Shown one piece after another: positions 2,610 through 20,934 of a DNA stretch of 38,720 nt. The notes under the pieces are model-generated. The model did not search any database, was not told the origin of the DNA, and was given only the letters and a program-made list of their open reading frames with translations. The stretch is from Bacillota bacterium (lineage in GTDB: Bacteria; Armatimonadota; HRBIN16), in NCBI GenBank assembly GCA_023511455.1, contig JAIMBJ010000032.1, forward strand, positions 1 through 38,720. The letters are read 5' to 3'. Every line of letters starts with the position of its first letter. Position 1 is the first letter of the stretch. Position numbers and translations under genes: made by a program.

Positions 2610-3818
2610 ATGACGAAATTGCTGTACTTGACGCTTCTTTTGGGGTGTGTGGTCTGGAGCAGCGCGCAACCTGCATCCGATGAGTGGTTCCGCTATCCGC
2701 CTCAACCGGTAGAGGCACAGGTGCAGCTTCTCCGCACAACACAGGAGAATACTCATCTGCTCGTCAGGTTCCCCAGTCTGCTGGTGACTCCGGATTATCC
2801 CCAGAACAGCACGGTATACGCGGAGGTGTTTATCCCTCACCAGAGTGAGAGAATGCCCGCGGTCGTTATCCTGCATTCATGGGGAGTGCAGAAGCCGGAC
2901 ATTGAGCTTTCGCTGGCTCGCTTTCTGGCAAAGCGTGGTTTTGTGACGGCGGTCATGACTTTACCGTACCACATCCAGCGCACGCCCAGCGGCTACTTGA
3001 GCGGAGAACTGATGATTGTATCCGATGCGGAACACATGCGCCGCACCATGCGCCAGGCGGCGCTCGACGTGCGGCGGTTGATCGACTGGCTGCAGTCTCA
3101 GGCTCAAATAGATGCCGAGAAGATAGGCATCGTTGGTATCAGTCTGGGGGCTATCGTGGGCGCTCTGACGCTGGGGGTGGAACCACGACTGCAGGCAGGA
3201 GTGCTGGTGCTGGGTGGGGCAAATCTGGCCCATGTGCTGTGGCGCAGCCCGTTGACGATGAACATCCGTGCCGAACTACGGGGTAAAGGGATTGGCTATG
3301 AGAAGCTGCGTGAGGAGATGCTGCCGGTAGAACCGCGGACTTTCCTGAATGGGCAGTACGGTCACCGAGTGTTGATGGTCAACGGCAGGTACGACCTGGT
3401 GATACCTCGGGAAGATGCGCTGGCATTGCGGCGTGCCCTCGGGGATGGTCCCCTATTGTGGCTGAACACCGGGCATTATGGACCCGCGCTGGTGCAATCG
3501 GCGTTATTCGATGTGGTTGGGCGTTTCCTGAGCGCGAATCTGCAGAATGGCTCCGAGCCGTTTTCTCTGCCGACCACCCTGCACGAACCGACCATCCGGG
3601 TCGGTTTGCTTTACAGCGGGGTATGGGGCGCACGTGTGAGCACGGCGATAGATATCTGGCGCTGGGAACGTGAAGGCAGGGCGGGGGTTGCCTTACAGGC
3701 TTCGCCACGCAATATCTCTCTGCTGGTGGGGTTTCGCCCGCTTTCACCCCTGCACGTGGGCATCGAGCTGTCCTCGCGTGCACCGGCGGGGTATATATTG
3801 TTCCACTTCGTTCTGTAG
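2610..3818 (+). CDS. exported alpha/beta hydrolase with beta-rich C-terminal extension
   Basis: The 402-residue protein starts with a signal peptide (MTKLLYLTLLLGCVVWSSAQ, cleavage probably near residue 20). An alpha/beta-hydrolase core follows: AVVILHSWG (oxyanion-hole region, about 84-92), nucleophile elbow GISLG (Ser178), NGRYDLVIP (Asp262) and NTGHYGP (His289), a complete Ser-Asp-His triad. The family resembles dienelactone-hydrolase-like or prolyl-oligopeptidase-like esterases; the substrate cannot be read from sequence. The last 75 or so residues alternate polar and hydrophobic residues and end YILFHFVL, looking like beta strands outside the usual fold. GAGGTG lies 6 bases before the ATG. 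The gene is divergent from gyrB and lies about 190 bases upstream of mraZ; it is probably a separate transcript. Confidence 0.8.
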   Translation: MTKLLYLTLLLGCVVWSSAQPASDEWFRYPPQPVEAQVQLLRTTQENTHLLVRFPSLLVTPDYPQNSTVYAEVFIPHQSERMPAVVILHSWGVQKPDIELSLARFLAKRGFVTAVMTLPYHIQRTPSGYLSGELMIVSDAEHMRRTMRQAALDVRRLIDWLQSQAQIDAEKIGIVGISLGAIVGALTLGVEPRLQAGVLVLGGANLAHVLWRSPLTMNIRAELRGKGIGYEKLREEMLPVEPRTFLNGQYGHRVLMVNGRYDLVIPREDALALRRALGDGPLLWLNTGHYGPALVQSALFDVVGRFLSANLQNGSEPFSLPTTLHEPTIRVGLLYSGVWGARVSTAIDIWRWEREGRAGVALQASPRNISLLVGFRPLSPLHVGIELSSRAPAGYILFHFVL

Positions 3819-3913
3819 GCAGTCACCGCGGCTCAGGGGCATCCTCATCGCACAGGTTGTGGTGCAGTAATACTCCACTCATATATGTCTACATCTAGTG
3901 GTCTCCAGAAAAT

Positions 3914-3935
3914 TTTTCTCAAAATATTGAGAAAA
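3914..3935. promoter_or_regulatory. AT-rich 9-base dyad upstream of the dcw promoter
   Basis: A perfect inverted repeat, TTTTCTCAA then AATA then TTGAGAAAA, ends 14 bases upstream of the -35 box of the dcw promoter. It sits in a conspicuously AT-rich patch in otherwise GC-rich DNA. It could be a regulator operator, an UP element for RNA polymerase alpha, or part of a terminator for the upstream hydrolase gene, though no T-run follows. Its role is inferred. Confidence 0.4.
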
Positions 3936-3949
3936 TCCCTCGAAAACCG

Positions 3950-3979
3950 TTGACAAGCCCGCCCCTCATTTTTTACAAT
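3950..3979 (+). promoter_or_regulatory. dcw cluster promoter (-35 TTGACA, 18-base spacer, -10 TACAAT)
   Basis: TTGACA at 3950-3955 and TACAAT at 3974-3979 are separated by 18 bases. Transcription would start near 3986, just before the GTGG repeat array and the mraZ start. This is the only strong promoter seen ahead of the 17-gene cluster, so it is probably the main one. Confidence 0.75.
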
Positions 3980-3991
3980 GTATGCAACCGA

Positions 3992-4029
3992 GTGGATGTT
4001 GAGTGGATGCCAGGTGGTGAAAAGGTGGA
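3992..4029 (+). promoter_or_regulatory. candidate MraZ operator: four GTGG(A/T) boxes at 11-base period
   Basis: GTGGA (3992-3996), GTGGA (4003-4007), GTGGT (4014-4018) and GTGGA (4025-4029) recur with exactly 11 bases from box to box, about one helical turn. They lie just downstream of the -10 box. MraZ is known to autoregulate dcw clusters by binding short G-rich direct repeats (TGGGN in Escherichia coli) near the mraZ promoter. The arrangement fits an operator contacted on one face of the DNA by a MraZ ring. Binding is inferred. Confidence 0.6.
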
Positions 4030-4567
4030 GGAAAAGGCTCCAGATAGCACACTGGATGAGAATCGGGTGGAGGCGCCAGAGCAAGCACCTGGGGGTGAGG
4101 CGCTTGCTGCGTTGCAGGGATACTCGGAGCACTCGGTGGATGACAAGGGGCGTATCATCATGCCGCAGCGCTTCCGAGACCTGTTTGGGCGCTCCTGTGT
4201 GATGACGCAGGGTTGGAACCGGAGCCTGTTTGTGTTTCATCCTGTCACCTGGCAACGGATACGTTCGCAGCTGGCGCAGCTTCCCTTCATGAGTGAGGAA
4301 GCAGTACGCCTGCAACGGTTTTTCATCAGTCCAGCAACGGACGTAGATATCGATTCGCAGGGGCGTTTAGCGATTCCTGCCCATCTGCGCGATTGGGCAC
4401 GGATTGCTTTACCGACTTCGGAAACGCCCAGTGTGGTGGTGATTATCGGCGCGCCGTATCGTCTGGAGGTATGGAGTAAGGAGCGATGGAAGGAGACCAA
4501 CTCTCAGATTGAAGACGGTGCCGTCTTCCAGGCGGCAGCCACACTGGGCGTGAGGCTGGAGCTGTGA
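4007..4567 (+). CDS. mraZ: transcriptional regulator MraZ
   Basis: MraZ is the first gene of most dcw clusters, a ring-forming DNA-binding protein of the AbrB-like fold. The two tandem halves are visible: YSEHSVDDKGRIIMPQRFRD and, later, TDVDIDSQGRLAIPAHLRDW; each holds the conserved DxxGR motif. It ends with the typical PYRLEVWSKERW. Start choice is difficult. ATG 4007 gives 186 residues, about 35 more than usual, with a Glu/Pro/Gly-rich head, and overlaps the candidate operator. TTG at 4112, preceded by GGTGAGG, would give 151 residues, the normal family length, starting right at the conserved domain. An upstream ATG near 3950 is excluded because it overlaps the promoter -35 box. rsmH follows after two bases, so the two are probably translationally coupled. 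Confidence 0.9.
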   Translation: MPGGEKVEEKAPDSTLDENRVEAPEQAPGGEALAALQGYSEHSVDDKGRIIMPQRFRDLFGRSCVMTQGWNRSLFVFHPVTWQRIRSQLAQLPFMSEEAVRLQRFFISPATDVDIDSQGRLAIPAHLRDWARIALPTSETPSVVVIIGAPYRLEVWSKERWKETNSQIEDGAVFQAAATLGVRLEL

Positions 4568-4569
4568 GC

Positions 4570-5511
4570 ATGATAACCATGAACAGTCATACACCGGTGA
4601 TGGTGCGCGAGGTACTGGAACTGCTCCGTCCGCAGCCTGGAGAATTCATTGTGGATGCTACGGTGGGGCTGGGTGGACATTCGGTGGAGATTGCTCCCCG
4701 CCTGATACCGAGCGGCTGGCTTATCGGCATTGACCGCGACCCGGGCGCGCTGGAGACCGCTGCCCGTCGGCTCGAGCAGTTCAGTGGAGCCATCCGTGTG
4801 ACGCTGGTTCACGCGGACTTTCGCGATTTGCCCCGGGTGCTGAGTGAGCGTGGGCTGGAAGGAGCAGACGGTATCCTGTATGACCTCGGTGTGAGTTCGA
4901 TGCAGCTGGATAGTGCGGAACGCGGTTTCAGCTTCCGTTTCGACGCGCCGCTGGACATGCGCATGGACCCAAGCCAGCCGGGCATTACCGCGGCCGACAT
5001 CGTGAACCGGTGGAGTGAGATGGACCTGCGCCGGCTCATACAGGAGTACGGAGAGGAGCCTGCCGCCGCTCGCATTGCCCGTGCGATTGTGCAAAATCGC
5101 CCGATACTGACCACTCAGCAGCTCGCGACGCTGGTAGCCAAGGCGATAGGGCGCCGTGGTGGGCACATCCATCCGGCAACGCGGACGTTTCAGGCTTTGC
5201 GCATCGCGGTCAACCGTGAACTGGAGGGCTTGCAGGAGGCAATCGAGCAGGCGGTTCATTGCCTGCTGCCGGGCGGGCGCATCGTCGTGCTGACTTACCA
5301 TTCGTTAGAGGCGCGTGCGGTTAAACGGGCGTTTCAGCGGTTGAGCGGCCGGTGTATTTGTCCACCTCATGTGCCTGAGTGCCAGTGTGGAGCAGAGCGG
5401 TTGATACGCCTTCTGACACCACATGCACTCAAGCCAAATGCAGAGGAGGTCGCTGTCAATCCGCGCTCTCGCAGTGCGCAGTGCCGTGCTGCCGAGAGGC
5501 TTGCGGATTAG
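4570..5511 (+). CDS. rsmH: 16S rRNA (cytosine(1402)-N(4))-methyltransferase RsmH
   Basis: RsmH (MraW) methylates N4 of C1402 in the decoding centre of 16S rRNA using S-adenosylmethionine. The 313-residue product shows HTPVMVREVLELL at the N-terminus, the SAM-binding motif VDATVGLGGHS, IGIDRDPGAL, YDLGVSSMQLD, the RGFSFRFDAPLDMRM block, HPATRTFQALRIAVNREL, and SYHSLE-type motif LTYHSLEARAVK. A Cys cluster near residues 275-285 (CICPPHVPECQCG) is also found in many family members. GGAG at 4558-4561 supports ATG 4570; a GTG at 4564 and an ATG at 4579 are alternatives. It is the usual partner of mraZ. Confidence 0.96.
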   Translation: MITMNSHTPVMVREVLELLRPQPGEFIVDATVGLGGHSVEIAPRLIPSGWLIGIDRDPGALETAARRLEQFSGAIRVTLVHADFRDLPRVLSERGLEGADGILYDLGVSSMQLDSAERGFSFRFDAPLDMRMDPSQPGITAADIVNRWSEMDLRRLIQEYGEEPAAARIARAIVQNRPILTTQQLATLVAKAIGRRGGHIHPATRTFQALRIAVNRELEGLQEAIEQAVHCLLPGGRIVVLTYHSLEARAVKRAFQRLSGRCICPPHVPECQCGAERLIRLLTPHALKPNAEEVAVNPRSRSAQCRAAERLAD

Positions 5512-5535
5512 TTATCTACAAGGCAGGAGGGTGAT

Positions 5536-5880
5536 ATGGTTTTTCAGGATGTGGTTCGCACGGGGGTGCGGGTACGGTCTCAAGCTGTCGTCAGGTACCG
5601 CATTCTTGCAGGGACGCGCCTGTGGTGCGTGCTGGTTTTCGCCGGGGTAGTGGCTTACCTTACAGCGTGTGGCTATGTTTACAATCTCTCCCGTGAGAGA
5701 CACAGGCTGTTCATTCAGCGGGAGGCTCTTCGGAAAGAGTACTACCTGCTGTTGAGCCAGTATGAGACCCTGCGCGATCCGGTGCGTATCCAGAAGCGGG
5801 CACAAGCATTCGGCATGGTACCGCTCACCCAACCGCAGGCGGTTGCCAGTGCGCCGGTCGTTCTGGCACAGCGACACTGA
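5536..5880 (+). CDS. ftsL: cell division protein FtsL-like (septum formation)
   Basis: This short protein of 114 residues has a basic cytoplasmic head, one membrane segment (about 28-50, LWCVLVFAGVVAYLTACGYV) and an outer coiled-coil segment with repeated Leu/Tyr spacing (about 55-85). It ends in a RIQKRAQAFGMVPL motif typical of FtsL/DivIC proteins. FtsL joins FtsB/DivIC and FtsQ/DivIB to activate FtsWI. Sequence conservation in the family is low, so the call rests on topology, size and its position between rsmH and the penicillin-binding protein gene. AGGAGG lies 6 bases before the ATG. Confidence 0.85.
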   Translation: MVFQDVVRTGVRVRSQAVVRYRILAGTRLWCVLVFAGVVAYLTACGYVYNLSRERHRLFIQREALRKEYYLLLSQYETLRDPVRIQKRAQAFGMVPLTQPQAVASAPVVLAQRH

Positions 5881-5895
5881 GCAGAAGGTGTACCA

Positions 5896-7776
5896 ATGGC
5901 TGTGCGTCGGCGGAGGCGTCCGTTCACCCTTGAGGACGCCCGGTGGAGGTTGCTGCTGACCGGGTGGCTGATAACATTGCTCTTCTTCGGTGCATGGGCG
6001 CGTTTGTTGTATCTGCAGACTGCCAAAGCGGATGCTCTGCGTGCCCAGGCCGAGCGGTACGGGGGACTGCGCAAAAAGAGGTGGACAGTGTACGGGATGC
6101 GCGGAACCATCAGAGACCGTCTGGGTAACGTGCTTGCCATGGATGTGATGTCCGTGTCGATTTATGTCCGTCCCAAAGCGGTCACCGATGCGCGATCCGT
6201 GGCACGCCAGCTCAGCCCCTTTGTCGGCAAACCAGCTGCGGAGATTGAGCGAGAGATTCTCGAGAGGAAGAGGCGCATCGAGGAAGCCGAAAAGCAACGA
6301 ATGTTCGGACAGGGTAGCGGATTCAATACACCTGTTGCCCCCTCCTTCACGTTGAAGAAAGACCTGGTGGGCGAACCGGCGAGGCGACTCAAAGAGGCAA
6401 TGGCGGACGAGCGGAGACGGGTGGCAAAAGCTATCCGTGACTCCGCGCGTCTAAGGCGCCCTGTTCAGGTGACTTCGTGGCTGGATGGCGTGGACGTGGT
6501 GGACGAACCAAGCCGCCATTATCCGTACCGGGCTATGGCTTCTGCGCTCATCGGTTTCACCGATACAGACGGGAGAGGCGCCGAGGGGCTCGAGCACCTT
6601 TACGACAACGTGCTTGCTGCCACGCATGGCGAGGTTGAAGGAGTGCTGGGATCTCGCGGGCACATAATGCCAGGTACGCGGGTAGTCAGGCGGCTGGGTG
6701 TCGACGGAGGCGACGTGCAACTCACTATCGATGCGAATATCCAGAGCATTGCCGAGAGTTGCCTGCAGGAGGTAATGGAGAAGCACCAGCCCGCAGGAGC
6801 CTGTGCCATTGTGATGGATGTGCAAAGCGGTGACCTGCTTGCGGTGGCGAATATGCCTCGTGTCGACCTGAACAACTGGGTTCAAGAACTGAAAAAGTAT
6901 GGGCAGCGCGTCATGCACAACATGGCGATGAAGTTCCTGTTTGAACCGGGCTCGACGTTCAAGCCCATTACCATCGCCACTGCCATGCAGGCAGGGGTAG
7001 TAGGAGAAGGCAGTCGGTTCCATTGTAGTGGCTCCATGAAAATCGGGAAGCATACTATCCATTGTGCCCGGCACGGTGGTTCAAGGGCGCATGGTCACCA
7101 GACTCTGCGTGACGTAGTTGCTCATTCCTGTAACATAGCTACTGCCCAGATTGGCATGAGGCTGGGATCTTCTGCTCTGTATGAGACGACTGAGCGGTTC
7201 GGTTTGCTGGAAAAGCCTGTTAAGGGTAGCGAAGCAGGCAGGTTAGAAAAACCACGCCGATGGCAGAAGATCCGCCTGGCAAACGTGGCGTTCGGACAGG
7301 GTTTACAGGTCACCCCTCTGGGGCTGGCAGCTGCCTACGCCGCGATAGCCAACGATGGAGTGTATGTGAAGCCTCGTCTGTTGTTGAATGAGCCGGTGGA
7401 GACCCACGCCGTGCTGTCGCCGGAGGTGGCACGCCAAATGCGCGATTACCTTCGGGCAGTGGTGGACGAGGGCACAGGCAAGCTGGCGGAGGTCAAGGGA
7501 TATGAGATAGCCGGTAAGACCGGCACGGCGCAGAAGGTGATACCCGGCAGGCGAGGATACGCGCCGGGCAAATATGTTGCCTCTTTCGTAGGGTTTGCCC
7601 CGGCTGACAATCCGCGTATTGTGGTGCTGGTTGTAGTGGATGAACCGCGCAATGGTTATTTTGGAGGTGTGGTCGCCGCGCCTGCTTTTGCCCGCATCAC
7701 CGAGCGGGTGCTGGTGTATCTGGGCGTTCCCGCGATGCATGATAAGCAGAAACACATCCCGTTTTCTAAGCGTTGA
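5896..7776 (+). CDS. ftsI: septal peptidoglycan transpeptidase FtsI (class B PBP)
   Basis: This is the division-specific D,D-transpeptidase (PBP3), 626 residues. It has a basic head, one membrane anchor (about 18-40), a PBP dimerisation domain starting with MRGTIRDRLGNVLAMD (68-83), and a transpeptidase domain with all three active-site motifs: STFK (Ser353, Lys356), SCN (411-413) and KTGT (541-544). No PASTA domains follow, unlike many Gram-positive homologues, which suits a diderm. A charged stretch (about 120-190) within the dimerisation region appears longer than in FtsI of well-known proteobacteria. The start is supported by GAAGGTG upstream. It works with FtsW, encoded later in the cluster. 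Confidence 0.95.
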   Translation: MAVRRRRRPFTLEDARWRLLLTGWLITLLFFGAWARLLYLQTAKADALRAQAERYGGLRKKRWTVYGMRGTIRDRLGNVLAMDVMSVSIYVRPKAVTDARSVARQLSPFVGKPAAEIEREILERKRRIEEAEKQRMFGQGSGFNTPVAPSFTLKKDLVGEPARRLKEAMADERRRVAKAIRDSARLRRPVQVTSWLDGVDVVDEPSRHYPYRAMASALIGFTDTDGRGAEGLEHLYDNVLAATHGEVEGVLGSRGHIMPGTRVVRRLGVDGGDVQLTIDANIQSIAESCLQEVMEKHQPAGACAIVMDVQSGDLLAVANMPRVDLNNWVQELKKYGQRVMHNMAMKFLFEPGSTFKPITIATAMQAGVVGEGSRFHCSGSMKIGKHTIHCARHGGSRAHGHQTLRDVVAHSCNIATAQIGMRLGSSALYETTERFGLLEKPVKGSEAGRLEKPRRWQKIRLANVAFGQGLQVTPLGLAAAYAAIANDGVYVKPRLLLNEPVETHAVLSPEVARQMRDYLRAVVDEGTGKLAEVKGYEIAGKTGTAQKVIPGRRGYAPGKYVASFVGFAPADNPRIVVLVVVDEPRNGYFGGVVAAPAFARITERVLVYLGVPAMHDKQKHIPFSKR

Positions 7777-7784
7777 CATTGGGG

Positions 7785-7815
7785 TTTAGCGGACTGTTGG
7801 CGCATACTGTATAAT
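7785..7815 (+). promoter_or_regulatory. possible internal promoter before murE (-10 TATAAT)
   Basis: A perfect TATAAT lies at 7810-7815 in the 146-base gap between ftsI and murE, the longest gap inside the dcw cluster. The -35 region is poor (about 3 of 6 matches at normal spacing); a TTGACA at 7773-7778 is too far away to pair with it. It may give extra transcription of the mur genes. Confidence 0.35.
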
Positions 7816-7922
7816 AGGTGGGGTATCGCAAGGATACATACGCCGGGCGCGCTGTGCGAATCGGTGTAAGGATAGAGCGCAGACTGTTTTGTAAGACAAG
7901 GCAAGGCTGTGAGGTGAACCGG

Positions 7923-9401
7923 ATGCCGCGAGTTCTGTTGTCTGAGCTTATCGAATTACTCCCTGAGGTGCGCCTCTCTGGCGCTTCGGATATTCAGGTA
8001 TGGGTAACGGATGTTGCCTGCGACTCGCGCAAGGTCAAACCGGGTGCGCTGTTTGTGGCGATACCGGGTCAGCAGTTCGACGGACATGACTTCGTGCCGG
8101 ACGCCGTAGCGCGAGGTGCGGTAGCGGTTGTGGTAGAACACCCCGTAGAGGTTACGTCAGTGCCTGTGCTGCAGGTGCCTCATGCTCGCGAGGCGCTGGC
8201 TTTGCTTGCCAACGGGTTTTATGGTTTCCCGTCGCGCAGGCTGTTGCTGGTTGGGGTGACGGGCACCAACGGAAAGACGACCACCACGCACCTCATCGCT
8301 CATGTACTTCGCACCAGCGGCTTGTCGACAGGCAGCATGGGAACTTTGGGCGCAGTTCTGGACGGGGTGGGTGAAGTGCCTATCTCCCACACCACGCCGG
8401 AGGCGCCCGATATCCAGTATGTGCTTTATACCGCTGTGCAGAACGGCGTGAAGGCAGTGGCGATGGAGGTTTCTTCTCATGCGCTGCACCAGCACCGAAC
8501 GCTGGGATTGGAGTTTGACGTCGCGGTCTTCACCAACCTGACGCAGGACCACCTGGACTATCACAAGACGATGGAGAACTATGCGGCGAGCAAGCGCAGG
8601 CTCTTCGTGGACTATCCGCCGCGCAGCACCAAACATGCCCATGTCGTCTTCAATCTGGACGACCCCACAGGCAGGCAATGGTATGAGGAAAGCGTTTATG
8701 ACCGATGGGGATATGGGGTATCCAGTCCGGATGCTTGCGTGCGGGCATCGGAGGTGCGCCTGTTTCCTGATGGCGTGGAGATGCGTGTGGTGACCCCCGA
8801 AGGGGAGCATCACGTGCGCGTTCCTCTTGGAGGCGCGTTTCAGGTGTACAATATTCTGGCGGCAATCACCGCTTCGCTGGCGCTGTCGCTTTCGCCCGAT
8901 ACTGTGGTCAATGCGTTGCGCGACGTTCCGCAGGTGCCTGGGCGATTTGAAATCGTTTCCAATCGTCGCGGCATCACGGTCATCGTGGATTACGCACATA
9001 CGCCCGATGCGCTGGAGAATCTGTTGCGTTCCGCAAGGGCATTACAGCCTCGTCGTCTAATTACTGTATTTGGCTGCGGCGGCAACCGCGACCGGTCTAA
9101 ACGTCCCAGGATGGGGGCTATTGCCTCTGAACTATCAGACCTTTGCGTGGTTACCTCCGACAACCCGCGCAATGAGCCGCCGGAAGCCATTATCGACGAG
9201 ATACTGCAGGGCATTCGCCAACGGGAAGATGTACGGGTGGAGCCAGACCGTCGCCGTGCTATTGCTCTCGCTATAGAGAGCGCGCAGGCGGGCGACATGG
9301 TGGTGATCGCGGGAAAGGGGCATGAGACGGTGCAAATCGTTGGCGATCAGCGAATCCCGTTTGACGACAGGCAGGTTGCGCGCGAGATGCTGGAAGGTTG
9401 A
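7923..9401 (+). CDS. murE: UDP-N-acetylmuramyl-tripeptide synthetase MurE (likely meso-diaminopimelate-adding)
   Basis: MurE adds the third residue to UDP-MurNAc-L-Ala-D-Glu in the cytoplasm. The 492-residue protein has an N-terminal UMP-binding domain (VACDSRKVKPGALFVAIPG), the central ATP-binding domain with GVTGTNGKTTTT (111-122), EVSSHALHQHR, FTNLTQDHLDYH and the probably carbamylated Lys of ASKRRLF, and a C-terminal domain with VIVDYAHTPDAL. The motif DNPR at 413-416 (in SDNPRNEPP) is the signature of meso-diaminopimelate specificity; lysine-adding enzymes differ here. ATG 7923 has GAGGTG six bases upstream; GTG 7914 and a longer open stretch back to 7818 are less likely. Followed after five bases by murF. 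Confidence 0.96.
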   Translation: MPRVLLSELIELLPEVRLSGASDIQVWVTDVACDSRKVKPGALFVAIPGQQFDGHDFVPDAVARGAVAVVVEHPVEVTSVPVLQVPHAREALALLANGFYGFPSRRLLLVGVTGTNGKTTTTHLIAHVLRTSGLSTGSMGTLGAVLDGVGEVPISHTTPEAPDIQYVLYTAVQNGVKAVAMEVSSHALHQHRTLGLEFDVAVFTNLTQDHLDYHKTMENYAASKRRLFVDYPPRSTKHAHVVFNLDDPTGRQWYEESVYDRWGYGVSSPDACVRASEVRLFPDGVEMRVVTPEGEHHVRVPLGGAFQVYNILAAITASLALSLSPDTVVNALRDVPQVPGRFEIVSNRRGITVIVDYAHTPDALENLLRSARALQPRRLITVFGCGGNRDRSKRPRMGAIASELSDLCVVTSDNPRNEPPEAIIDEILQGIRQREDVRVEPDRRRAIALAIESAQAGDMVVIAGKGHETVQIVGDQRIPFDDRQVAREMLEG

Positions 9402-9406
9402 ACACA

Positions 9407-10783
9407 ATGGAACCCATTACTCTGGATACTATCGCCAAAGCCATCGGTGGGGTGCTTACTGGAGAGCGAACAGCCCTCGTCAAAGGCATCGGCATTGACA
9501 GCCGGACCATTGAGGCTGGACACCTCTTCTTTGCCATACCGGGCGAGCGCACCGATGGACATCAGTACGTGCGCATGAGTGCGGAGCGGGGCGCGGTGGG
9601 CGCCGTGGTTTCACGACCGGTAGACGCGCCGCAAGGCTTTCCGCTCATCTATGTCGCAGATACCGTCTGGGCGCTGGGGTGTTTTGCTCGCTGGTATCGG
9701 GGTCTTTTTGACATTCCCGTGATAGGGATTACGGGCAGCACGGGCAAAACCACCACCAAAGAGATGACTGCTGCCGCTCTCAGCGCACGCCACACGGTTC
9801 TCAAGTCTCCGCAGAACCTGAATAACGAGATAGGTTTACCTCTGACGATTTCGCAGCTGGAGAGGCACCACACCGTGGCGGTGCTGGAGATGGCAATGCG
9901 AGGCAGGGGACAAATTGACTGGCTGGCAAACATTGCACGTCCTTCCATTGGCGTGATTACCAACATCGGGTGGGCGCACCTTGAGCTGCTTGGCTCAAGG
10001 GATAACATTGCCCTGGCAAAATCGGAAATTCTGTACCGTCTCCCCGAAGACGGTGTGGCTGTGCTGAATGCAGACGACGATTATTTTGAATTTTGCCGCC
10101 GGCAGGTGCGCTGCAGGGTGATTACATTCGGACATCGGCGCGGGGCAACAGTGCGGGCGGTAAAGCCACAGATGGAACGGGATGGTAAGGTTCGATGTAT
10201 CGTGCGCTACGGGCGAGAGATCTCGCCGCTACAAGTTCCCGTGCCCGGTTTGCATCACTTGAGCAATGCGCTGGCAGCCCTCGCCTGCGCAGTGGCGGTG
10301 GGTGTTCCGCTTGCGGAAGCTACCGTCTATTTGCAGCAAATGCAGGCAGTGGAACAGCGGATGCAGGTGTGTCGGACAGCCAAGCAGATAACCGTGCTCG
10401 ATGACACCTACAATGCTAATCCAGCGTCAGTCAAAGCAGCTTTACACACGATGGAGCGGATGGCAAACGGCTGCAGGCGGATAGTGGTTTTGGGAGATAT
10501 GCTGGAGTTGGGCGAAGAAGCCCCCCAACTGCACCGTGAGGTCGGTCAGGAAGCGGCTCGGATTGGCGCGCAGGTGATTGTGGCGGTGGGTGAGATGGCA
10601 GAGGAGATCGTTCGTGGTGCAAAATCGGCAGGAAACCCCTCGGTGTGTTTGACTTTCAGCGACAGCAACGCCGCAGCGGAAAACATTCTTCGCTATCTGC
10701 AGCCGGGTGACATGGTGCTGGTGAAAGGTTCACGCGCTCTTCACATGGAGCTGGTCGTGAAAGCCATTTCCGAGGACTGTTAA
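9407..10783 (+). CDS. murF: UDP-N-acetylmuramoyl-tripeptide--D-alanyl-D-alanine ligase MurF
   Basis: MurF attaches the D-Ala-D-Ala dipeptide made by Ddl to complete the pentapeptide precursor. The 458-residue product has the Mur-ligase N-terminal domain (GIDSRTIEAGHLFFAIPGE), P-loop GITGSTGKTTTKEM (about 107-120), NLNNEIGLPLTI typical of MurF, EMAMRGRGQI, and the C-terminal DDTYNANPASVKAAL motif diagnostic for the family. GGAAGG at 9392-9397 supports ATG 9407 rather than the TTG at 9398 that overlaps the murE stop. mraY starts two bases after the stop codon, implying one transcript. Confidence 0.97.
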   Translation: MEPITLDTIAKAIGGVLTGERTALVKGIGIDSRTIEAGHLFFAIPGERTDGHQYVRMSAERGAVGAVVSRPVDAPQGFPLIYVADTVWALGCFARWYRGLFDIPVIGITGSTGKTTTKEMTAAALSARHTVLKSPQNLNNEIGLPLTISQLERHHTVAVLEMAMRGRGQIDWLANIARPSIGVITNIGWAHLELLGSRDNIALAKSEILYRLPEDGVAVLNADDDYFEFCRRQVRCRVITFGHRRGATVRAVKPQMERDGKVRCIVRYGREISPLQVPVPGLHHLSNALAALACAVAVGVPLAEATVYLQQMQAVEQRMQVCRTAKQITVLDDTYNANPASVKAALHTMERMANGCRRIVVLGDMLELGEEAPQLHREVGQEAARIGAQVIVAVGEMAEEIVRGAKSAGNPSVCLTFSDSNAAAENILRYLQPGDMVLVKGSRALHMELVVKAISEDC

Positions 10784-10784
10784 C

Positions 10785-11780
10785 ATGCTCTGGTTCTGGG
10801 TGGCATTTAGCTTTGCGCTGGTGGTCGTGCTGGCGATGGGCGAGCCGACTCTGCGTGTGCTGGTGTCTGTCAAGGCTGGTCAGGCTATTCGCGAGGATGC
10901 ACCGGAGCGTCACCGCACCAAAGCGGGAACGCCGACAATGGGCGGTGTGCTGATAGTAACCGGTCTGGTGATAGGAGTATTGTTGACACTGGGGATACAA
11001 GCTGCCCTTTCTCAACAAACGCTCACCAGAGCATGGGACCCGGCGGCTTTTTGTACTACTGTGCTGGCCTTCGCGGGGATTGGCTTGCTGGATGACTACC
11101 TGATTATCCGGCGTGGTAAGAATCTGGGCTTAAAGGCGCGTCAGAAGCTATTGATGCAGTGTGCTGTAGCGCTTGCTTTTGCGGCATACCTCTTTGTCAA
11201 CGCCGAGATCGGTGTGACCACAGTGCTCCAGGCTGGCGAATGGCGCGTGGACCTGGGCGGCTGGTATTATCCTCTGGCGGTGTTGTTTATCGTCGCTTTG
11301 TCGAACGCGGTAAACCTTGCCGATGGGCTGGATGGTCTGGCAGCGGGGTTATCGCTGATTGCGGCATGTGCGCTGGGCAGTGTCGCTGGTTTACGCGACC
11401 CCTCGTGGGTGCTGCAAGGTGCGGGGGCATTAGGTGGAGCATGTGCGGGCTTTTTGAACTTTAACCGCTATCCGGCTCGGGTATTCATGGGAGATACCGG
11501 CTCGCTGGCATTGGGGGCCGCCCTGGCGCTGGTTGCCATCTTTGCCAAGGCGGAGTTGATTGCCATGGTAGTGCTAATGGTCTTCTGGATAGAAATGCTA
11601 TCGGTGATACTGCAGGTCATTTCGTTTCAGACGACAGGCAAGCGGATATTCCGAATGTCTCCACTGCACCACCACTTCGAGTTACTGGGGATGCACGAGA
11701 CTCGTGTGGTCATGATGTTCTGGATAGCGGGCATTGTCAGCGGTGCCGCGGGTTATGTGCTCGCACGGGTGAGTATATGA
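10785..11780 (+). CDS. mraY: phospho-N-acetylmuramoyl-pentapeptide transferase MraY
   Basis: MraY transfers phospho-MurNAc-pentapeptide to undecaprenyl phosphate to form lipid I in the inner membrane. The 331-residue protein has about ten hydrophobic segments. Signature motifs are ERHRTKAGTPTMGG, LLDDYLI (Asp103, Asp104), NAVNLADGLDGLAAG, VFMGDTGSLALG and the C-terminal MSPLHHHFELLG with its His triplet. Length is close to the bacterial norm. GAGGA precedes the ATG, and the stop overlaps the murD start as ATGA. Confidence 0.97.
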   Translation: MLWFWVAFSFALVVVLAMGEPTLRVLVSVKAGQAIREDAPERHRTKAGTPTMGGVLIVTGLVIGVLLTLGIQAALSQQTLTRAWDPAAFCTTVLAFAGIGLLDDYLIIRRGKNLGLKARQKLLMQCAVALAFAAYLFVNAEIGVTTVLQAGEWRVDLGGWYYPLAVLFIVALSNAVNLADGLDGLAAGLSLIAACALGSVAGLRDPSWVLQGAGALGGACAGFLNFNRYPARVFMGDTGSLALGAALALVAIFAKAELIAMVVLMVFWIEMLSVILQVISFQTTGKRIFRMSPLHHHFELLGMHETRVVMMFWIAGIVSGAAGYVLARVSI

Positions 11781-13171
11781 AACACACGCAGTGGCGAAAC
11801 AAACGCATACTGGTGGTGGGTATCGGGCGGAGCGGTTACGACGTGGCTCGGGTACTGCACCAGCTGGGGGCATCTGTTACCGCCTGTGATGCCCGGTTCC
11901 CTGAACTGGCAAACCGTCTGGCAGAGCAGGGAGTACAGGTTTTGACCGGCTGGCAGGGGGGCTTGCCAGGGAAGGCTTATGACCTCGTGATAACCAGCCC
12001 GGGAGTTCCTCAATGGGCTGAGGTGTTGCAGGATGCGGTCAGGAAGGACATCCCCGTCTGGTCGGAGGTGGAGTTCGCCTTCCATCTGAGCGAGGCTCCG
12101 ATAGTTGCCGTGACTGGAACCAACGGTAAAAGCACCACTGCGGCACTGGTCGCACACATTCTTCACACAGCAGGCTATCGCTCGATATTGTGCGGTAACA
12201 TCGCCGCCGACGGGATGGAGCGTACCCTGACCGACGCCGCTTCACAGGCAGAGCCCGAGGATATCCTGGTTGCCGAGGTCAGCAGTTTTCAACTGGAGTG
12301 GGTGCATGAGTTCCGTCCTGTTGTCGGAGTATGGACGACTCTGTCACCCGACCACCTGGACCGCCACGGTTCCCTCGAAGAGTATGGCAAAGTCAAGGCG
12401 AGACTGTTTCGTCGCCAAACGGGGACGGATTTTGCCGTTATCCCCGGCGACGATGACTTCATCTGCAGTCTGGTGAAAACAACGGCAAAATATATCTATT
12501 TTTCTCATCAGAACATAGATAAAAATGGGTGCTTCGTGGTCTGGTGTGATGCAGATGGGGTATACTTCAGGAAAGGGGAAGGGGTCAACCGCCTCGCTTC
12601 TATCGGACGATACCGACTGTACGGTGAGCACAACCGACGTAACCTGGCAGCGGCGGTTGCTGCTTGCCTCCCCTGGAACATCGCGGGAGAACGGCTGGAG
12701 GAAGCCATAGCCACCTTCCGCCCGCTACCCCATCGCATGGAATGGGTGGCGGAAATCGATGGGGTGCAGTACATCAACAACTCCATGTGCACTAATCTGC
12801 AAGCGGTTGAGGAAAGTCTGAGAACCGTACCCTCACCGGTCGTGCTCATTATGGGGGGCGTGGATAAAAGCGGTACTCCTTTTGGCAACCTTGTGCCGCT
12901 TTTGCAACAGAAGGCGCGAGGCGTGGTGCTTATCGGAGCAGACGCGCAGAACATCGAGGAGAAGCTCCGCACGGCGGGGTGGGAACGTATCGTTCGGTGC
13001 GACGGTCTGGAAGAGGCGGTTTTACGCGCCCGTGACCTTGCCCATCGGGGTGACTGCATCATGTTGTCGCCCGGATGCGCGAGCTTTGACATGTTTGTCA
13101 ATTTTCAGGAACGGGGGAACGCCTTTCGCCGCATCGTGCATCGGCTGGAGGGAGAGGGAAACGATGAGTGA
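11777..13171 (+). CDS. murD: UDP-N-acetylmuramoylalanine--D-glutamate ligase MurD
   Basis: MurD adds D-glutamate to UDP-MurNAc-L-alanine. The 464-residue protein has a Rossmann-like N-terminal domain with ILVVGIGRSGYDVAR, the ATP-binding motif VTGTNGKSTTAA (Lys118), EVSSFQLE, LSPDHLDRHG, and C-terminal motifs PHRMEWV, NNSMCTN and LIMGGVDKSG followed by LSPGCASFDMF, which is typical of MurD. It overlaps mraY by four bases (ATGA) and ftsW by eight bases. Confidence 0.96.
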   Translation: MKHTQWRNKRILVVGIGRSGYDVARVLHQLGASVTACDARFPELANRLAEQGVQVLTGWQGGLPGKAYDLVITSPGVPQWAEVLQDAVRKDIPVWSEVEFAFHLSEAPIVAVTGTNGKSTTAALVAHILHTAGYRSILCGNIAADGMERTLTDAASQAEPEDILVAEVSSFQLEWVHEFRPVVGVWTTLSPDHLDRHGSLEEYGKVKARLFRRQTGTDFAVIPGDDDFICSLVKTTAKYIYFSHQNIDKNGCFVVWCDADGVYFRKGEGVNRLASIGRYRLYGEHNRRNLAAAVAACLPWNIAGERLEEAIATFRPLPHRMEWVAEIDGVQYINNSMCTNLQAVEESLRTVPSPVVLIMGGVDKSGTPFGNLVPLLQQKARGVVLIGADAQNIEEKLRTAGWERIVRCDGLEEAVLRARDLAHRGDCIMLSPGCASFDMFVNFQERGNAFRRIVHRLEGEGNDE

Positions 13172-14366
13172 TGTACACCGCGCCAGGGAGGACAGACTGC
13201 TTGCTTGGGCGGTTTTCGCGCTGGTGATTGTGGGATTGATTGTGGTATACGACGCCAGTTTTCCGAAGCAAGGCTCCTCGCAACTGTTGAAACAGTCTAT
13301 TTGGGCTGGGGTAGGTCTGCTGGCGTATGCGGTTGGCAGGCGTGTTTCCCTCACTTTCCTGCACAAAGCCGCGGTGCCCGTGTTTATCTTATCCCTGGGG
13401 CTGATGATGGCGGTGCTGACCCCCCTCGGCGTGGAACGCAATGGGGCACTTCGCTGGCTCAAACTGGGACAGATTGGCGCTTTTGAGGTTCTGGTACAGC
13501 CTTCCGAGCTCGGCAAAATCGCGCTGATTGTATTGCTGGCGAGTTTGCTCTGCGCACCCAACCTGATCGGTTCATGCGAAAAGACGCGCAAGCAAAACTA
13601 TTTATGGGCGCTGTTCGGTATCCTGCTGGCAGCCGGGATTGTGGTGAAAGTGCAGGACGACCTGGGTACCGCGCTGGTGTTCGTTGGGATCGGAGTCGGG
13701 ATGCTTTTCGCGGCGGGTCTACCTTTCCGTCGCGTCGCATTGCTGGTCGCGGTGCTGGCAGTGGTCGCCGTCATCTTCATCTTTGAGAAAGAGTATCGCC
13801 TGCAGCGCGTCATCGCGTTTACCCAGCCGTTTGCTTACATAAATACCTCGGGTTACCAGCTCGCCCACTCGCTGATGGGTATAGGCTCCGGCGGGATTTG
13901 GGGAGTGGGACTTGGAATGGGACGCGCAAAAGAGTTCCTGCCGGCGGCAGAGACTGACTTTGTGTTTACAACCGTTGCGGAAGAGACCGGTATATTCGGC
14001 AGCACCGCGATTATGGTACTGCTGGCGCTGGTATCGTGGCGGGTATTCCTTGTGGCACACAGGGCTCAAGCGATGTTTCTTCTCCTGCTGGCAAGCGGTC
14101 TGGGACTCATGATTGCATGGCAGAGCCTGTTGAATCTTTATGTGGTTACCGGCGCAGTGCCGACGACCGGTGTGCCTTTGCCGTTCATCAGCTATGGAGG
14201 TTCGTCACTGGTCAGTTTGCTATTCAGTATAGGTTTGGTTCAAAAAGTTGCAGGCAATCCGATGATGGAGCGCGTGAAAGAGGCTTCTTATGCGCGTGCT
14301 GCTGGTGGGCGGGGGAACCGGCGGTCATCTGTTTCCCGCCGTGAGTATCGCCGAGGCGTTGCGTGA
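13164..14366 (+). CDS. ftsW: septal peptidoglycan glycosyltransferase FtsW (SEDS family)
   Basis: FtsW polymerises lipid II at the septum together with FtsI. The 400-residue membrane protein carries SEDS signatures: VQPSELGKIALI (111-121), QDDLGTALVF (164-173; most relatives have Pro where Asp165 stands), HSLMGIGSGGIWGVGLGMG, the catalytic loop LPAAETDFVFTTVAEE with Asp265, and VPLPFISYGGSSLVS. The cytoplasmic tail is Arg/Ser/Gly-rich (RGNRRSSVSRREYRRG). The ATG lies within the end of murD. The last 77 bases overlap the start of murG in another frame, a long overlap for this cluster. RodA is a possible alternative, but position favours FtsW. Confidence 0.94.
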   Translation: MSDVHRAREDRLLAWAVFALVIVGLIVVYDASFPKQGSSQLLKQSIWAGVGLLAYAVGRRVSLTFLHKAAVPVFILSLGLMMAVLTPLGVERNGALRWLKLGQIGAFEVLVQPSELGKIALIVLLASLLCAPNLIGSCEKTRKQNYLWALFGILLAAGIVVKVQDDLGTALVFVGIGVGMLFAAGLPFRRVALLVAVLAVVAVIFIFEKEYRLQRVIAFTQPFAYINTSGYQLAHSLMGIGSGGIWGVGLGMGRAKEFLPAAETDFVFTTVAEETGIFGSTAIMVLLALVSWRVFLVAHRAQAMFLLLLASGLGLMIAWQSLLNLYVVTGAVPTTGVPLPFISYGGSSLVSLLFSIGLVQKVAGNPMMERVKEASYARAAGGRGNRRSSVSRREYRRGVA

Positions 14367-15375
14367 CGCCGGTGTCAGCGATATCGCATTTGCCGGGCGT
14401 GAGGATGGTCTGGAGGGGCGTGTTATTCCATCCATGGGATGGCGTTTCTATGCCATTCGGGCATTGCCCCTGCGGCGGTCGCTGGCTCCGGCAGCGATAG
14501 GTGCATTGTTGCGTACGGTGAGCACTGCCCGCCGCATTCTGCGCGAGTTTGCCCCCGACGTGGTGGTGGCTACTGGGGGATATGTGGCGGCAGGTGTGGT
14601 GCTGGCGCAGGCACTGCGGCGCGGCAAAATCGTGTTGCACGAGCAGAACGCCATTCCGGGACGCGCTAATCGCTGGCTGGCTCGATGGGCGCGGAGGGTG
14701 TGCATCACTTTTGAAAGCACGGCGCGTTATTTTGGCGGAAGCCTCTGTGTGCATACTGGACTGCCGGTGCGGAAGGAGTTACTGCAAGCGCGTATGCAGA
14801 GCCATTCTGCCCGCGATGCGCTGGAGCTGAACCCTGACGAGCGAGTGCTGTTTGTTATCGGGGGCAGTCAGGGGGCGCGCACACTGAACAGCTGGACACT
14901 GGAGATATTGCCGGAACTGCAGCGGGCAGGAGTGCAGGTGATACATCAGGTGGGCGAGCGCAACATGGCGGATTTCGAGCAGTATTCGCAGCTCGATGGC
15001 TATCGGTGGTTTGGGTTTATGGATGCATCGACACTCGGGCGGGCGCTATCGGCGGCAGACCTTGTGCTTTCGCGGGCAGGTGCCTCAACGCTGAACGAAA
15101 TCGCGCTGTTCGGCAAGGCAGCAGTGTTCGTGCCCTATCCCTATGCCTATGCAGACCATCAGTGGCACAATGCGCAGGAACTGGCGCGTCTCGGTGGGGC
15201 GGTGGTCTTTCGCGAAGGGGAGATAGATGCCCGCAGGCTCGCCGGAGAACTGCTGGATCTTCTGAAGGATGAATGCAGGCTACAACAGATGGGCGCGGCA
15301 AACTGTCGGTGGAGCAGAGAAGACGCCGCAGAGCGGGTGGTTCAACAGGTGATGGAGGTGGCGGATCAGCCATGA
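14290..15375 (+). CDS. murG: lipid II synthase MurG (UDP-GlcNAc transferase)
   Basis: MurG adds GlcNAc to lipid I on the cytoplasmic face of the membrane. The 361-residue GT28 protein starts with the lipid-binding glycine loop VGGGTGGHLFPAVSIAEAL, has VATGGYVAAG, LHEQNAIPGRANR, the second glycine loop IGGSQGARTLN, and the donor-binding block LSRAGASTLNEIALFGK with PYPYAYADHQWHNA. Because the glycine loop must be retained, the start at 14290 inside ftsW is hard to avoid. The stop overlaps the murC start as ATGA. Confidence 0.96.
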   Translation: MRVLLVGGGTGGHLFPAVSIAEALRDAGVSDIAFAGREDGLEGRVIPSMGWRFYAIRALPLRRSLAPAAIGALLRTVSTARRILREFAPDVVVATGGYVAAGVVLAQALRRGKIVLHEQNAIPGRANRWLARWARRVCITFESTARYFGGSLCVHTGLPVRKELLQARMQSHSARDALELNPDERVLFVIGGSQGARTLNSWTLEILPELQRAGVQVIHQVGERNMADFEQYSQLDGYRWFGFMDASTLGRALSAADLVLSRAGASTLNEIALFGKAAVFVPYPYAYADHQWHNAQELARLGGAVVFREGEIDARRLAGELLDLLKDECRLQQMGAANCRWSREDAAERVVQQVMEVADQP

Positions 15376-16745
15376 ATGCTCTCCGCGTACATTTTGCGGG
15401 AATCGGCGGCATCGGCATGAGCGCGATTGCGCAGGTGCTGCACCAGCGCGGATGGCAGGTCACCGGATGCGACCTCAAGCCAAGCCCCATCACGCAGAAG
15501 CTTCAGGAGCAGGGCATCACGGTCTGGTTGGGGCACGACCCCACCCATGTGCAGGGATGTGACGTGTTCGTATACACGGCGGCGGTGCATGAGGACAATC
15601 CCGAGCTCATTGCAGCACGCAACACGGGAATCCGGGTGCTGCGCCGGTCGCAGGCGCTGGGTATGTTGCTGGAAGGTCATAAAGGCATTGCGGTAACGGG
15701 CACGCACGGCAAGACCACCACCACCGCAATGGTGGCGTCTGTGCTGGAAGCAGCGGGCGCGGACCCGCAGGTGCTGATTGGGGGGGAGGTGCGTCGGTAC
15801 GGCGGTAATGTACGGTTGGGACGGGGGGAGTACGTCGTCGTCGAGGCGTGTGAGGCATATGACTCCTTCCTGGACCTGTGTCCGTACGCGGCGGTAGTAA
15901 CCAACGTGGAAGCGGAGCATCTGGACTACTATCAGACCGAGCAAAGGATGCTGGAAAGCTATCGTCGGTTTGTGTCACAGGTTAGTGCAGAAGGGTTTGT
16001 GCTGACTTGGGCAGACGACGGGCGTTCTCTGGAGATATGTGACCAGGCCGTCGCAAAGGTGGTTACCTTTGGAAGGAGCCGCCGGGCGGATTACCGCGCT
16101 GTACCCGCAGATGGTGAGGGCGTGTTTCAGGTGCAGGCGCACGGTGAGACGCTGGGAGCAATCCGTCTGCGGGTGCCCGGCGCGCACAATGTGCTGAATG
16201 CGGTAGCCGCCGCTGGAGCAAGCGTGGAGCTGGGCTTATCCTTTGATGCTGTGCGTGAGGGGCTGGAGAGTTTTGAGGGTGTGCAGCGCAGGCTGGAGTT
16301 TGTCGGGCAGGCGAAGGGCGTGCAGATTTACGATGATTACGGTCACCATCCGACGGAGATAGAAGCAACCCTAGTCACCTTGCGTCCGCGAGTGAAAAAA
16401 AGGCTGGTGGTCGCGTTTCAGCCTCACCTCTACAGCCGAACGCGCGACTTCCTGCACCGGTTCGCAGATGTGCTGGCGCAGGGCAGTGATGTGCTGGTAC
16501 TGGTAGAAATCTATCCGGCGAGAGAGGAACCCATACCGGGTATCAGTTCCGCACGTCTTGCGGATGAGGTTCGTTGGCGGCGACCGGATATGCAGGTTAT
16601 CCTGGCAGATACACCCGAACGGGCAGCGGAGGTGTTACTGCAGATAGTGCGGGAGGATGATACAGTGTTAACGTTAGGAGCGGGGGAACTGGACCGCACT
16701 GCCCGCCTGTTGCTACAGTTACTGGGAGGTGCAGACGGTGTCTGA
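15372..16745 (+). CDS. murC: UDP-N-acetylmuramate--L-alanine ligase MurC
   Basis: MurC adds the first amino acid, L-alanine, to UDP-MurNAc. The 457-residue protein has an N-terminal Rossmann domain (FAGIGGIGMSAIAQVL), P-loop VTGTHGKTTTTAM (108-120), VEACEAYDSFLDL, NVEAEHLDYY, YDDYGHHPTEIEATL and QPHLYSRTRDF, all diagnostic for MurC. The ATGA overlap with murG fixes the start; an open stretch further upstream lies inside murG. No murB follows, although in many clusters murB sits here, and ddl follows instead with an eight-base overlap. Confidence 0.97.
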   Translation: MNALRVHFAGIGGIGMSAIAQVLHQRGWQVTGCDLKPSPITQKLQEQGITVWLGHDPTHVQGCDVFVYTAAVHEDNPELIAARNTGIRVLRRSQALGMLLEGHKGIAVTGTHGKTTTTAMVASVLEAAGADPQVLIGGEVRRYGGNVRLGRGEYVVVEACEAYDSFLDLCPYAAVVTNVEAEHLDYYQTEQRMLESYRRFVSQVSAEGFVLTWADDGRSLEICDQAVAKVVTFGRSRRADYRAVPADGEGVFQVQAHGETLGAIRLRVPGAHNVLNAVAAAGASVELGLSFDAVREGLESFEGVQRRLEFVGQAKGVQIYDDYGHHPTEIEATLVTLRPRVKKRLVVAFQPHLYSRTRDFLHRFADVLAQGSDVLVLVEIYPAREEPIPGISSARLADEVRWRRPDMQVILADTPERAAEVLLQIVREDDTVLTLGAGELDRTARLLLQLLGGADGV

Positions 16746-17733
16746 AAAGGTCATGGTGCTGATGGGGGGGGACTCCACCGAAAGGGAGGTTTCCCTCTCC
16801 TCTGGCAGGCGTGTGGCAGATGGACTGCGCCGAGCAGGCTACCATGTTATCGAGATGGATGTGGTATTCAGTCAATCGCTGGCAAAACAGCGCGGTTTAG
16901 AGGTATCTTCAGAGCGTGCGGTGGGACTTGCCGACCTGGTGAAGCGGCTGGTGATGCATCAGCCAGAAGTGGTGTTCATCGTGCTTCACGGCGCGCCGGG
17001 TGAAGACGGGCGCGTTCAGGCGGTGCTGGACTTGATGAATATACCCTATACCGGTTCGGGTGTACTGGCAAGCGCTCTTGCGCTGGATAAAGTGATGACC
17101 AAGCGGGTACTGGAGGCTTCGGGAGTGCCCGTAGCCCCGGAAGTGGTGTGCTATTGCGATGAACCCACAGAATCTATCACGCGAAAAGTGGGCGAGATGC
17201 TGGGTTACCCGGTCATCGTCAAGCCGAACACACAGGGATCCACGATAGGTGTGCATCGGGTGTATCAGGAGTCTGGGATGGATGAAGCTTTGCGGGATGC
17301 GTTCCGTTATGACGAGTGTGTGCTGATAGAGCCGCTTCTCTCCGGTGTGGAGTTGACGGTTCCAGTTGTGGGCAACCGGCGTGCTGTTGCTCTGCCAATG
17401 ATTGAAGTAGTGCCCGCAGGCGGTTTTTATGACTATGAGGCGAAATACACGCCCGGCGCGACTGAGGAAATCATCCCTGCACGAGTGCCGGATGAGATAC
17501 ATCAGCAGTGTGCGCATTACGCGCTTCTGTCCCATCGCGCGCTGGGCTGTCGGGGAATGTCGCGTATCGATTTCATCTGGGCAAGCGGTGGGGTTGTTGC
17601 CTTAGAAGTGAACACGATTCCGGGCATGACGCCGACCAGCTTGCTGCCTCGCTCGGCAGAAGCGTACGGCTGGAGTTTTGAACGTTTGGTAGACAACATT
17701 GTACGGCTTGCCAGGGGGGAAGAGGTCGTATGA
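16738..17733 (+). CDS. ddl: D-alanine--D-alanine ligase
   Basis: Ddl joins two D-alanines with ATP, giving the substrate of MurF. The 331-residue ATP-grasp protein has VLMGGDSTEREVSLSSG at the N-terminus (Glu in the first substrate site), VFIVLHGAPGEDG, PYTGSGVLASALALDK, PVIVKPNTQGSTIGV, EVVPAGGFYDYEAKY and VNTIPGMTPTSLLP near the end (Mg/ADP and second D-Ala site). GTG 16738 has GGGAGGT seven bases upstream and lies in the end of murC; a GTG at 16729 overlaps that ribosome site and is unlikely. alr, encoded about 7 kb downstream, makes its substrate. Confidence 0.95.
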   Translation: MSEKVMVLMGGDSTEREVSLSSGRRVADGLRRAGYHVIEMDVVFSQSLAKQRGLEVSSERAVGLADLVKRLVMHQPEVVFIVLHGAPGEDGRVQAVLDLMNIPYTGSGVLASALALDKVMTKRVLEASGVPVAPEVVCYCDEPTESITRKVGEMLGYPVIVKPNTQGSTIGVHRVYQESGMDEALRDAFRYDECVLIEPLLSGVELTVPVVGNRRAVALPMIEVVPAGGFYDYEAKYTPGATEEIIPARVPDEIHQQCAHYALLSHRALGCRGMSRIDFIWASGGVVALEVNTIPGMTPTSLLPRSAEAYGWSFERLVDNIVRLARGEEVV

Positions 17734-19304: not shown

Positions 19305-19669
19305 GCTGGTTGCCCGTTGTGGCTTTACTGGCGGGATTCATTATTTTCTACTTTGTCCCGCTGCAGCTGCCCAGTGATTACGCCCCCTACTTGAGCCTGG
19401 CTACTTTATCGGGGCTGGATTCGATTTTAGGGGGAATTCGTGCAGGTATTGAGGGCAAGTTTCACGTAGATGTATTCATATCAGGATTTATCTTCAACAC
19501 CCTGCTGGCGGCACTGCTGGCGTACCTGGGCGACCAGATCGGGGTGGATTTGTTTCTGGCAGCGGTGGTCACGCTGGGCGGGCGAATGTTTCTGAATCTG
19601 TCGCTCATCCGCCGCTACTACTTGACTCAATGGAACATATCCCGGCAGCGGGATGCTGAAAGAACCTGA
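19301..19669 (+). CDS. sbp: small basic protein, DUF1290 family (Sbp-like)
   Basis: The 122-residue protein has three or four hydrophobic segments: WLPVVALLAGFIIFYFVPLQ, a middle part LDSILGGIRAGIEGKFH typical of the family, then FISGFIFNTLLAALLAYLGD and DLFLAAVVTLGGRMFLNL. The C-terminus is basic (LIRRYYL, SRQRD). In Bacillus subtilis the homologue lies in the ylxW-ylxX-sbp region just before ftsA-ftsZ, the same order as here. Its biochemical function is unknown. The start overlaps the DUF881 stop (ATGA). Confidence 0.85.
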   Translation: MSWLPVVALLAGFIIFYFVPLQLPSDYAPYLSLATLSGLDSILGGIRAGIEGKFHVDVFISGFIFNTLLAALLAYLGDQIGVDLFLAAVVTLGGRMFLNLSLIRRYYLTQWNISRQRDAERT

Positions 19670-19686
19670 AACGGGAGTTCACATCG

Positions 19687-20904: not shown

Positions 20905-20934
20905 TATCCATTTCATCATAGGGGGCTAAACACC

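Follow-up and report, generated by a model that had tools for sequence, protein, structure and literature searches.

A gene for the transcription factor MraZ, followed by the division and cell-wall (dcw) cluster, lies behind a promoter and a short array of GTGG boxes in an Armatimonadota genome. Few bacterial transcription factors are as widely conserved as MraZ, whose gene stands at the head of the dcw cluster. The sequence analysed, termed the window, is a stretch of 38,720 nucleotides (G000:C32, i.e. contig C32 of genome G000). Comparisons within the genus use nine members in which mraZ was found; one of these, G002, matches BEHS01000067.1 ('Bacterium HR16', HRbin16). The features of the locus are listed below by their positions in the window.

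3914–3935, no strand assigned: perfect palindrome TTTTCTCAAAATATTGAGAAAA, 5′ of the -35 hexamer, exact in seven of the nine genus members
3950–3955, + strand: -35 hexamer TTGACA of the dcw promoter, invariant in the nine genus members
3974–3979, + strand: -10 hexamer TACAAT, invariant in the nine genus members, with an 18-bp spacer in all
3992–3995, + strand: putative MraZ box 1, GTGG, invariant in nine genomes, 12 or 13 nt after the -10 hexamer
4003–4006, + strand: putative MraZ box 2, GTGG, invariant in nine genomes
4014–4017, + strand: putative MraZ box 3, GTGG, invariant in nine genomes, at Shine-Dalgarno distance from GTG 4025
4025–4028, + strand: putative MraZ box 4, GTGG in eight of nine genomes; mraZ translation probably begins at its GTG
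4025–4567, + strand: mraZ coding sequence (predicted start), 180 aa, with an N-terminal extension of about 30 residues
4067–4070, + strand: GTGG 42 bp 3′ of box 4, possibly a fifth box
4406–4432, + strand: codons for the loop at about residues 128–136, site of the 7-residue insertion in the C-terminal half of the protein
4564–22089, + strand: remainder of the dcw cluster, from rsmH to ftsZ, all on one strand, with open reading frames mostly overlapping or closely spaced

The mraZ gene, its promoter and its start

The gene behind the boxes is mraZ, and it heads a complete dcw cluster. The encoded protein matches PF02381 twice (51.1 and 47.7 bits, cut-off 23), and the DxxxR motifs in both of its halves are invariant (D39/R43 and D110/R114). 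The best NCBIfam match is MraZ (TIGR00242) with 92.3 bits against an equivalog cut-off of 98.35; an extension at the N-terminus and an insertion of 7 residues are present in the protein. An AlphaFold2 model (pLDDT 86.8, residues 1–22 of low confidence) is close to M. pneumoniae MraZ (1n0e_A, Z = 21.7, rmsd 1.7, 141 residues) and to 9sz7_H (Z = 19.9). The M. genitalium MraZ structures 9qlg, 9sz7 and 9r4j give Z values of 19–21, and MraZ chains overall give 19–22.

Downstream, rsmH (TIGR00006) overlaps the end of mraZ and is followed by an FtsL-like open reading frame and an ftsI-type PBP. An FtsA-like open reading frame is found at 19687 and an FtsZ-like one at 20935, both on the same strand as mraZ. 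Since the same-strand open reading frames run on to FtsA and FtsZ, a regulator at the dcw promoter could act on the whole cluster. The stretch from rsmH to ftsZ is presumed to be one regulated unit with mraZ and would be co-transcribed with it.

The hexamers TTGACA and TACAAT, with their 18-bp spacer, show 11 of 12 matches and are the only sigma-70-type match in 3600–4600. A preliminary description of this DNA placed the boxes directly downstream of the -10 hexamer of the dcw promoter, and this is what is found: box 1, at 3992, begins 12–13 nt 3′ of TACAAT in all nine genomes. The palindrome TTTTCTCAAAATATTGAGAAAA upstream of the promoter has no other exact copy in the searched genus genomes that carry it. 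It may be the site of a second regulator or a structural element of the dcw promoter. Further upstream, positions 3864–3901 form a block that is strongly conserved in the genus, GCAGTAATACTCCAC.CATAAATGTCTACATATAGTGG, which ends in GTGG. This block resembles no nameable site.

The translation start of mraZ is probably the GTG of box 4 (4025). An alternative ATG at 4007 is missing in several relatives. In genome G004, box 4 is without a GTG, but an ATG has been gained one codon upstream. Between the possible fifth box and the MraZ domain, insertions and deletions have lengths divisible by three, and the distance from the -10 hexamer to box 1 is 12 or 13. Box 3, by its distance from this start, is probably part of the ribosome-binding site.

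The N-terminal extension (about 30 residues, 4025–4115) is absent from most other MraZ proteins. It is modelled with low confidence and is probably disordered. GTGG 4067 sits within this fast-evolving extension. It is off the 11-bp grid of the other boxes (+42 from box 4, i.e. four turns of 10.5 bp), and its offset from box 1 is +75 in all nine genomes, with no insertions or deletions between. This fifth GTGG may be a further contact or may reflect an unrelated constraint.

The box array and its conservation

The boxes start at 3992 (GTGGA), 4003 (GTGGA), 4014 (GTGGT) and 4025 (GTGGA), and the steps are exactly 11 bp. A direct reading of the window thus confirms the four GTGG(A/T) boxes with an exact 11-base period that had been described, as does a scan of both strands for all 4-mers at periods 7–15, where this is the sole exact four-fold array in the whole window. 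For a given strand and period, about 1.3e-4 four-fold GTGG arrays would be expected. The array score of the leader was reached by none of 100 dinucleotide shuffles, in each of the nine genus members.

The four boxes at exact 11-bp steps are kept in all nine members, with a single change: in G004 the fourth box is GCGG instead of GTGG. In the nine-genome alignment, 15 of the 16 box columns are invariant versus 5 of the 21 spacer columns (Fisher P = 3e-5). An alignment of leaders from relatives had been proposed as a check, with loss of the boxes beside a conserved promoter as the contrary outcome. Among the nine genus members the boxes are kept together with the promoter while the spacers vary. 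The boxes lie in reading frames 0, 2, 1 and 0, and the spacers vary to the same extent whichever codon position is considered. Thus the constraint is on the DNA and not on the protein.

The exact four-box pattern occurs once in genome G000, at mraZ. It also occurs once in each other searched genus genome that has four intact boxes. A wider MraZ regulon is not indicated by this pattern, i.e. there is no second four-box copy in G000. A three-box pattern is present at one other place in the genome (G000:C27:26339), which is the level of a reversed control. Among 291 Armatimonadota genomes the four-box pattern is present in 30. An MraZ gene is directly downstream in 18 of the 30 fetched loci, eight from the window genus and ten from family f43. 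The other loci are tandem repeats or have no MraZ match; one of them (L352) ends at a contig edge.

Known MraZ operators and other readings of the boxes

MraZ boxes are known from Escherichia coli, reportedly through the work of Eraso and colleagues in 2014. As a positive control at the sequence level, the E. coli leader was read by the same method, which recovers the operator at 10 bp; after the -10 hexamer it reads GTGGGAAATT GTGGGGCAAA GTGGGAAT. The two sites have in common direct GTGG repeats just 3′ of the dcw -10 hexamer and before mraZ. E. coli, however, has three GTGGG boxes at 10 bp, whereas the window has four GTGG(A/T) boxes at 11 bp that overlap the start codon. A period of 11 against 10 in E. 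coli had been noted beforehand and holds. A difference in the core, which had also been suggested, does not: GTGG is common to both, and it is the following base and the period that differ.

In Burkholderia cenocepacia, four 7-nt repeats with 3-nt spacers follow the -10 hexamer within a fragment bound by MraZ in EMSA, and GTG-core repeats are conserved in distant bacteria (PMC7761207). As in the window, where the transcription start is a predicted one, there are four repeats 3′ of the -10 hexamer that overlap this start, but with the 3-nt spacers the period is 10 and not 11. In Mollicutes, the MraZ site is given as (AAAGTGKN3)3 (Fisunov et al. 2016, as quoted in PMC5282649), and M. gallisepticum MraZ bound (GTGTTAN5)2, an 11-bp repeat, in vitro (PMC5282649). 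Structures are available in the PDB for M. genitalium MraZ with its promoter (9r4j) and with a 4-box promoter (9sz7). The Mollicutes site resembles that of the window in having GTG-core direct repeats about one turn apart, with a four-box complex solved (9sz7), and differs in its period of 10 and its AAAGTG consensus. Four boxes, put forward earlier as a peculiarity of this leader, are therefore not distinctive, being known from B. cenocepacia (PMC7761207) and from the M. genitalium complex 9sz7.

The published MraZ operators compared here, from the few organisms characterised, all have a 10-bp step. The window has four direct repeats with a GTG/TGG core about one turn apart (11 vs 10.5 bp). 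An exact 10-bp step, which is descriptive of the canonical operator and not defining, is absent from the window genus, where the step is 11 bp in all members. Because the step is 11 and not the canonical 10, the window operator is termed a variant. As far as sequences can be compared, the site agrees with known MraZ operators in core, number, order and position of the boxes and differs in step.

Several other explanations of the boxes may be considered. An open frame spans 3950–4567, with GTG 3992 in frame in all genomes, and the repeats might therefore encode an MraZ N-terminus that begins at 3992 or earlier, the boxes being kept for their amino acids. A period of 11, however, is not a multiple of three, the invariant boxes fall in all three frames, and the spacers show no codon-position bias. 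The loss of GTG at box 4 in G004, with an ATG one codon before it, also puts the start near 4025, 3′ of boxes 1–3. A coding origin of the repeats is thus very improbable. A G-quadruplex in the G-rich leader would have a precedent in S. aureus, where a parallel quadruplex forms in a guanine-rich region 3′ of PmraZ and similar motifs are found elsewhere in bacteria (PMC11796246). The boxes here have GG tracts only and mostly long spacers, and a quadruplex does not require a strict 11-bp step; moreover the T of GTGG, which is dispensable in a quadruplex, is kept in 35 of 36 boxes. There is next to no likelihood that the leader acts in this way.

A regulatory RNA, or a site for an RNA-binding protein (e.g. 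CsrA-type GGA), might be suspected because GGA is present in three of the four boxes and the predicted ribosome-binding site and start codon are overlapped by boxes 3 and 4. Yet the array begins at about the expected transcription start, there is no Rfam match in 3600–4700, and the leader folds no better than its shuffles (z = -1.1). In six of the nine genomes box 3 reads GTGGT, so that GGA is not the conserved feature, and regulation at the RNA level is most improbable. The remaining candidate is an operator of another protein, e.g. a second AbrB-type regulator. MraZ itself has an AbrB-like fold, and the separate palindrome at 3914–3935 shows that another factor may act at the dcw promoter. 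Against this, GTGG/TGGG arrays precede mraZ in Armatimonadota, Deinococcota, Bacillota and E. coli, which is the known MraZ site, and it is very unlikely that the boxes belong to a different protein.

A reading of the boxes as DnaA boxes was rejected, as they are without the TGTGGATAA core. Elsewhere, three loci (L335 at G021:C1:173431, L336 and L344) carry 11-bp tandem GTGGATAACCT arrays that resemble regularly spaced DnaA boxes. These are possibly replication origins.

Very probably MraZ, encoded by the first gene of the operon, has the four GTGG boxes as its operator, through which the expression of mraZ and the dcw genes would be set. What the sequences show is the array, its place 3′ of the -10 hexamer, its frame-independent conservation, its single occurrence per genome and the identity of the gene as mraZ; binding, repression and the effect on the whole operon are inferred. 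The earlier proposal of an MraZ operator is supported by the position, the core, the number of boxes and the gene downstream. In the proposed mechanism, MraZ would form an oligomeric ring whose adjacent DNA-binding faces meet one box after another, at about +6 to +43. MraZ on the boxes would block RNA polymerase at promoter escape, and this would give negative feedback on the level of mraZ and of the dcw genes behind it. In M. genitalium, MraZ represses the cluster (PMC8475190). In Neisseria elongata, loss of mraZ lowered, and did not raise, dcw expression (PMC9395523); thus the sign of MraZ regulation is not universal, and repression in the window organism is a prediction.

Distribution of the 11-bp step and the MraZ loop

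The leaders of mraZ genes were searched for chains of NTGG boxes with steps of 10 or 11. In Bacillota, 50 of the 53 leaders with arrays are all-10, and the steps from GTGG to GTGG are 10 in 107 of 107 cases. Among Armatimonadota outside the window genus, 12 arrays are all-11, 14 are mixed and 9 are all-10; by the chain-search criteria, no array was found in 51 of 86 distinct Armatimonadota MraZ leaders outside the genus. Several Armatimonadota families have all-11 arrays of 3–7 boxes, and in relatives a single operator can combine 10- and 11-bp steps. The longest MraZ-like arrays found here, in Armatimonadota, have seven boxes (L131, L135, L177, L180) or six (L115) at a strict 11. The box consensus is GTGGaGaCtna for 11-bp steps versus GTGGtGgaaA for 10-bp steps.

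Deinococcota leaders are mostly mixed, with steps of 11,11,10,10,11 or 10,11,10,10,11. Their boxes are GTGGG, and like the window array they include steps of 11 bp. The window array is all-11, whereas in Deinococcota the pattern 11,11,10,10(,11) has a mean of about 10.5 over five to six boxes and is not all-11. In four of these leaders (L222, L234, L238, L240) the five to six boxes show a fixed order of 11- and 10-bp steps. In the same leaders the last box, GTGGTATA, may overlap a -10 region, so that the array may lie over the promoter instead of behind it.

The window array had been taken as a lineage-specific version of the operator. The 11-bp step is real, but it is not confined to one lineage, being found in several Armatimonadota families and, in mixed form, in Deinococcota. 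From this distribution, the 10-bp step is probably ancestral and the 11-bp step would have arisen inside Armatimonadota. The mixed arrays are possible intermediates between the two. Perfect tandem GTGGAGACCCA repeats, identical in sequence to one Armatimonadota 11-bp MraZ box, are also seen at L364 (G152:C51:11723-11792). This locus has no MraZ nearby, and no mraZ was detected in genome G152.

At 10.5 bp per turn, successive boxes at an 11-bp step would rotate by about +17 degrees each, versus -17 for a 10-bp step. As the sense of rotation is opposite, the protein or the twist of the DNA must accommodate it. A candidate for this accommodation is an added loop that MraZ carries in its C-terminal half. 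In the window genus, seven residues are inserted there, after the helix LRxxAxI and before the strand VVIIG. Neither the solved MraZ structures nor the MraZ proteins of E. coli and Bacillota have this insertion. In most other lineages where 11-bp steps occur, two additional residues are found at this site.

All-11 arrays are found only beside MraZ proteins with 2–7 extra residues in this loop: none of 72 leaders of loop-less MraZ has one, versus 20 of 43 with the loop. The mean step is 10.08 for loop-less MraZ and 10.69 with the loop. A phylogenetic regression of step on loop, on a tree built without the loop columns, gives a slope of 0.20 bp (P = 0.012). The association was near perfect in the first ~60 sequences, and exceptions came with added Deinococcota and several families. 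All-10 arrays accompany a loop-bearing MraZ at L028, L166, L237 and L270, and the loop-less Deinococcota MraZ at L218 has a mixed 11/10 array. These exceptions make the link only suggestive, and the pairing of loop and 11-bp step has few independent origins. A tentative interpretation, which we regard as possible but on balance doubtful, is that the helix-strand loop sets the spacing of the DNA-binding faces in the ring, and that at least two extra residues permit the reading of 11-bp arrays. Operator period and regulator geometry would then have co-evolved in Armatimonadota and partly in Deinococcota.

The window array is genuine and belongs to a familiar kind of site, of which it is a clear variant; its interest is in the shift of period and the possible link to the protein. 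The box array offers a simple rule for locating the MraZ site in uncultured phyla. Arrays with 10-bp, 11-bp or mixed steps and 3–7 boxes form a natural family, well suited to the study of how DNA is measured by a regulator in the shape of a ring. The variation in step bears on the joint change of a regulator and the geometry of its operator.
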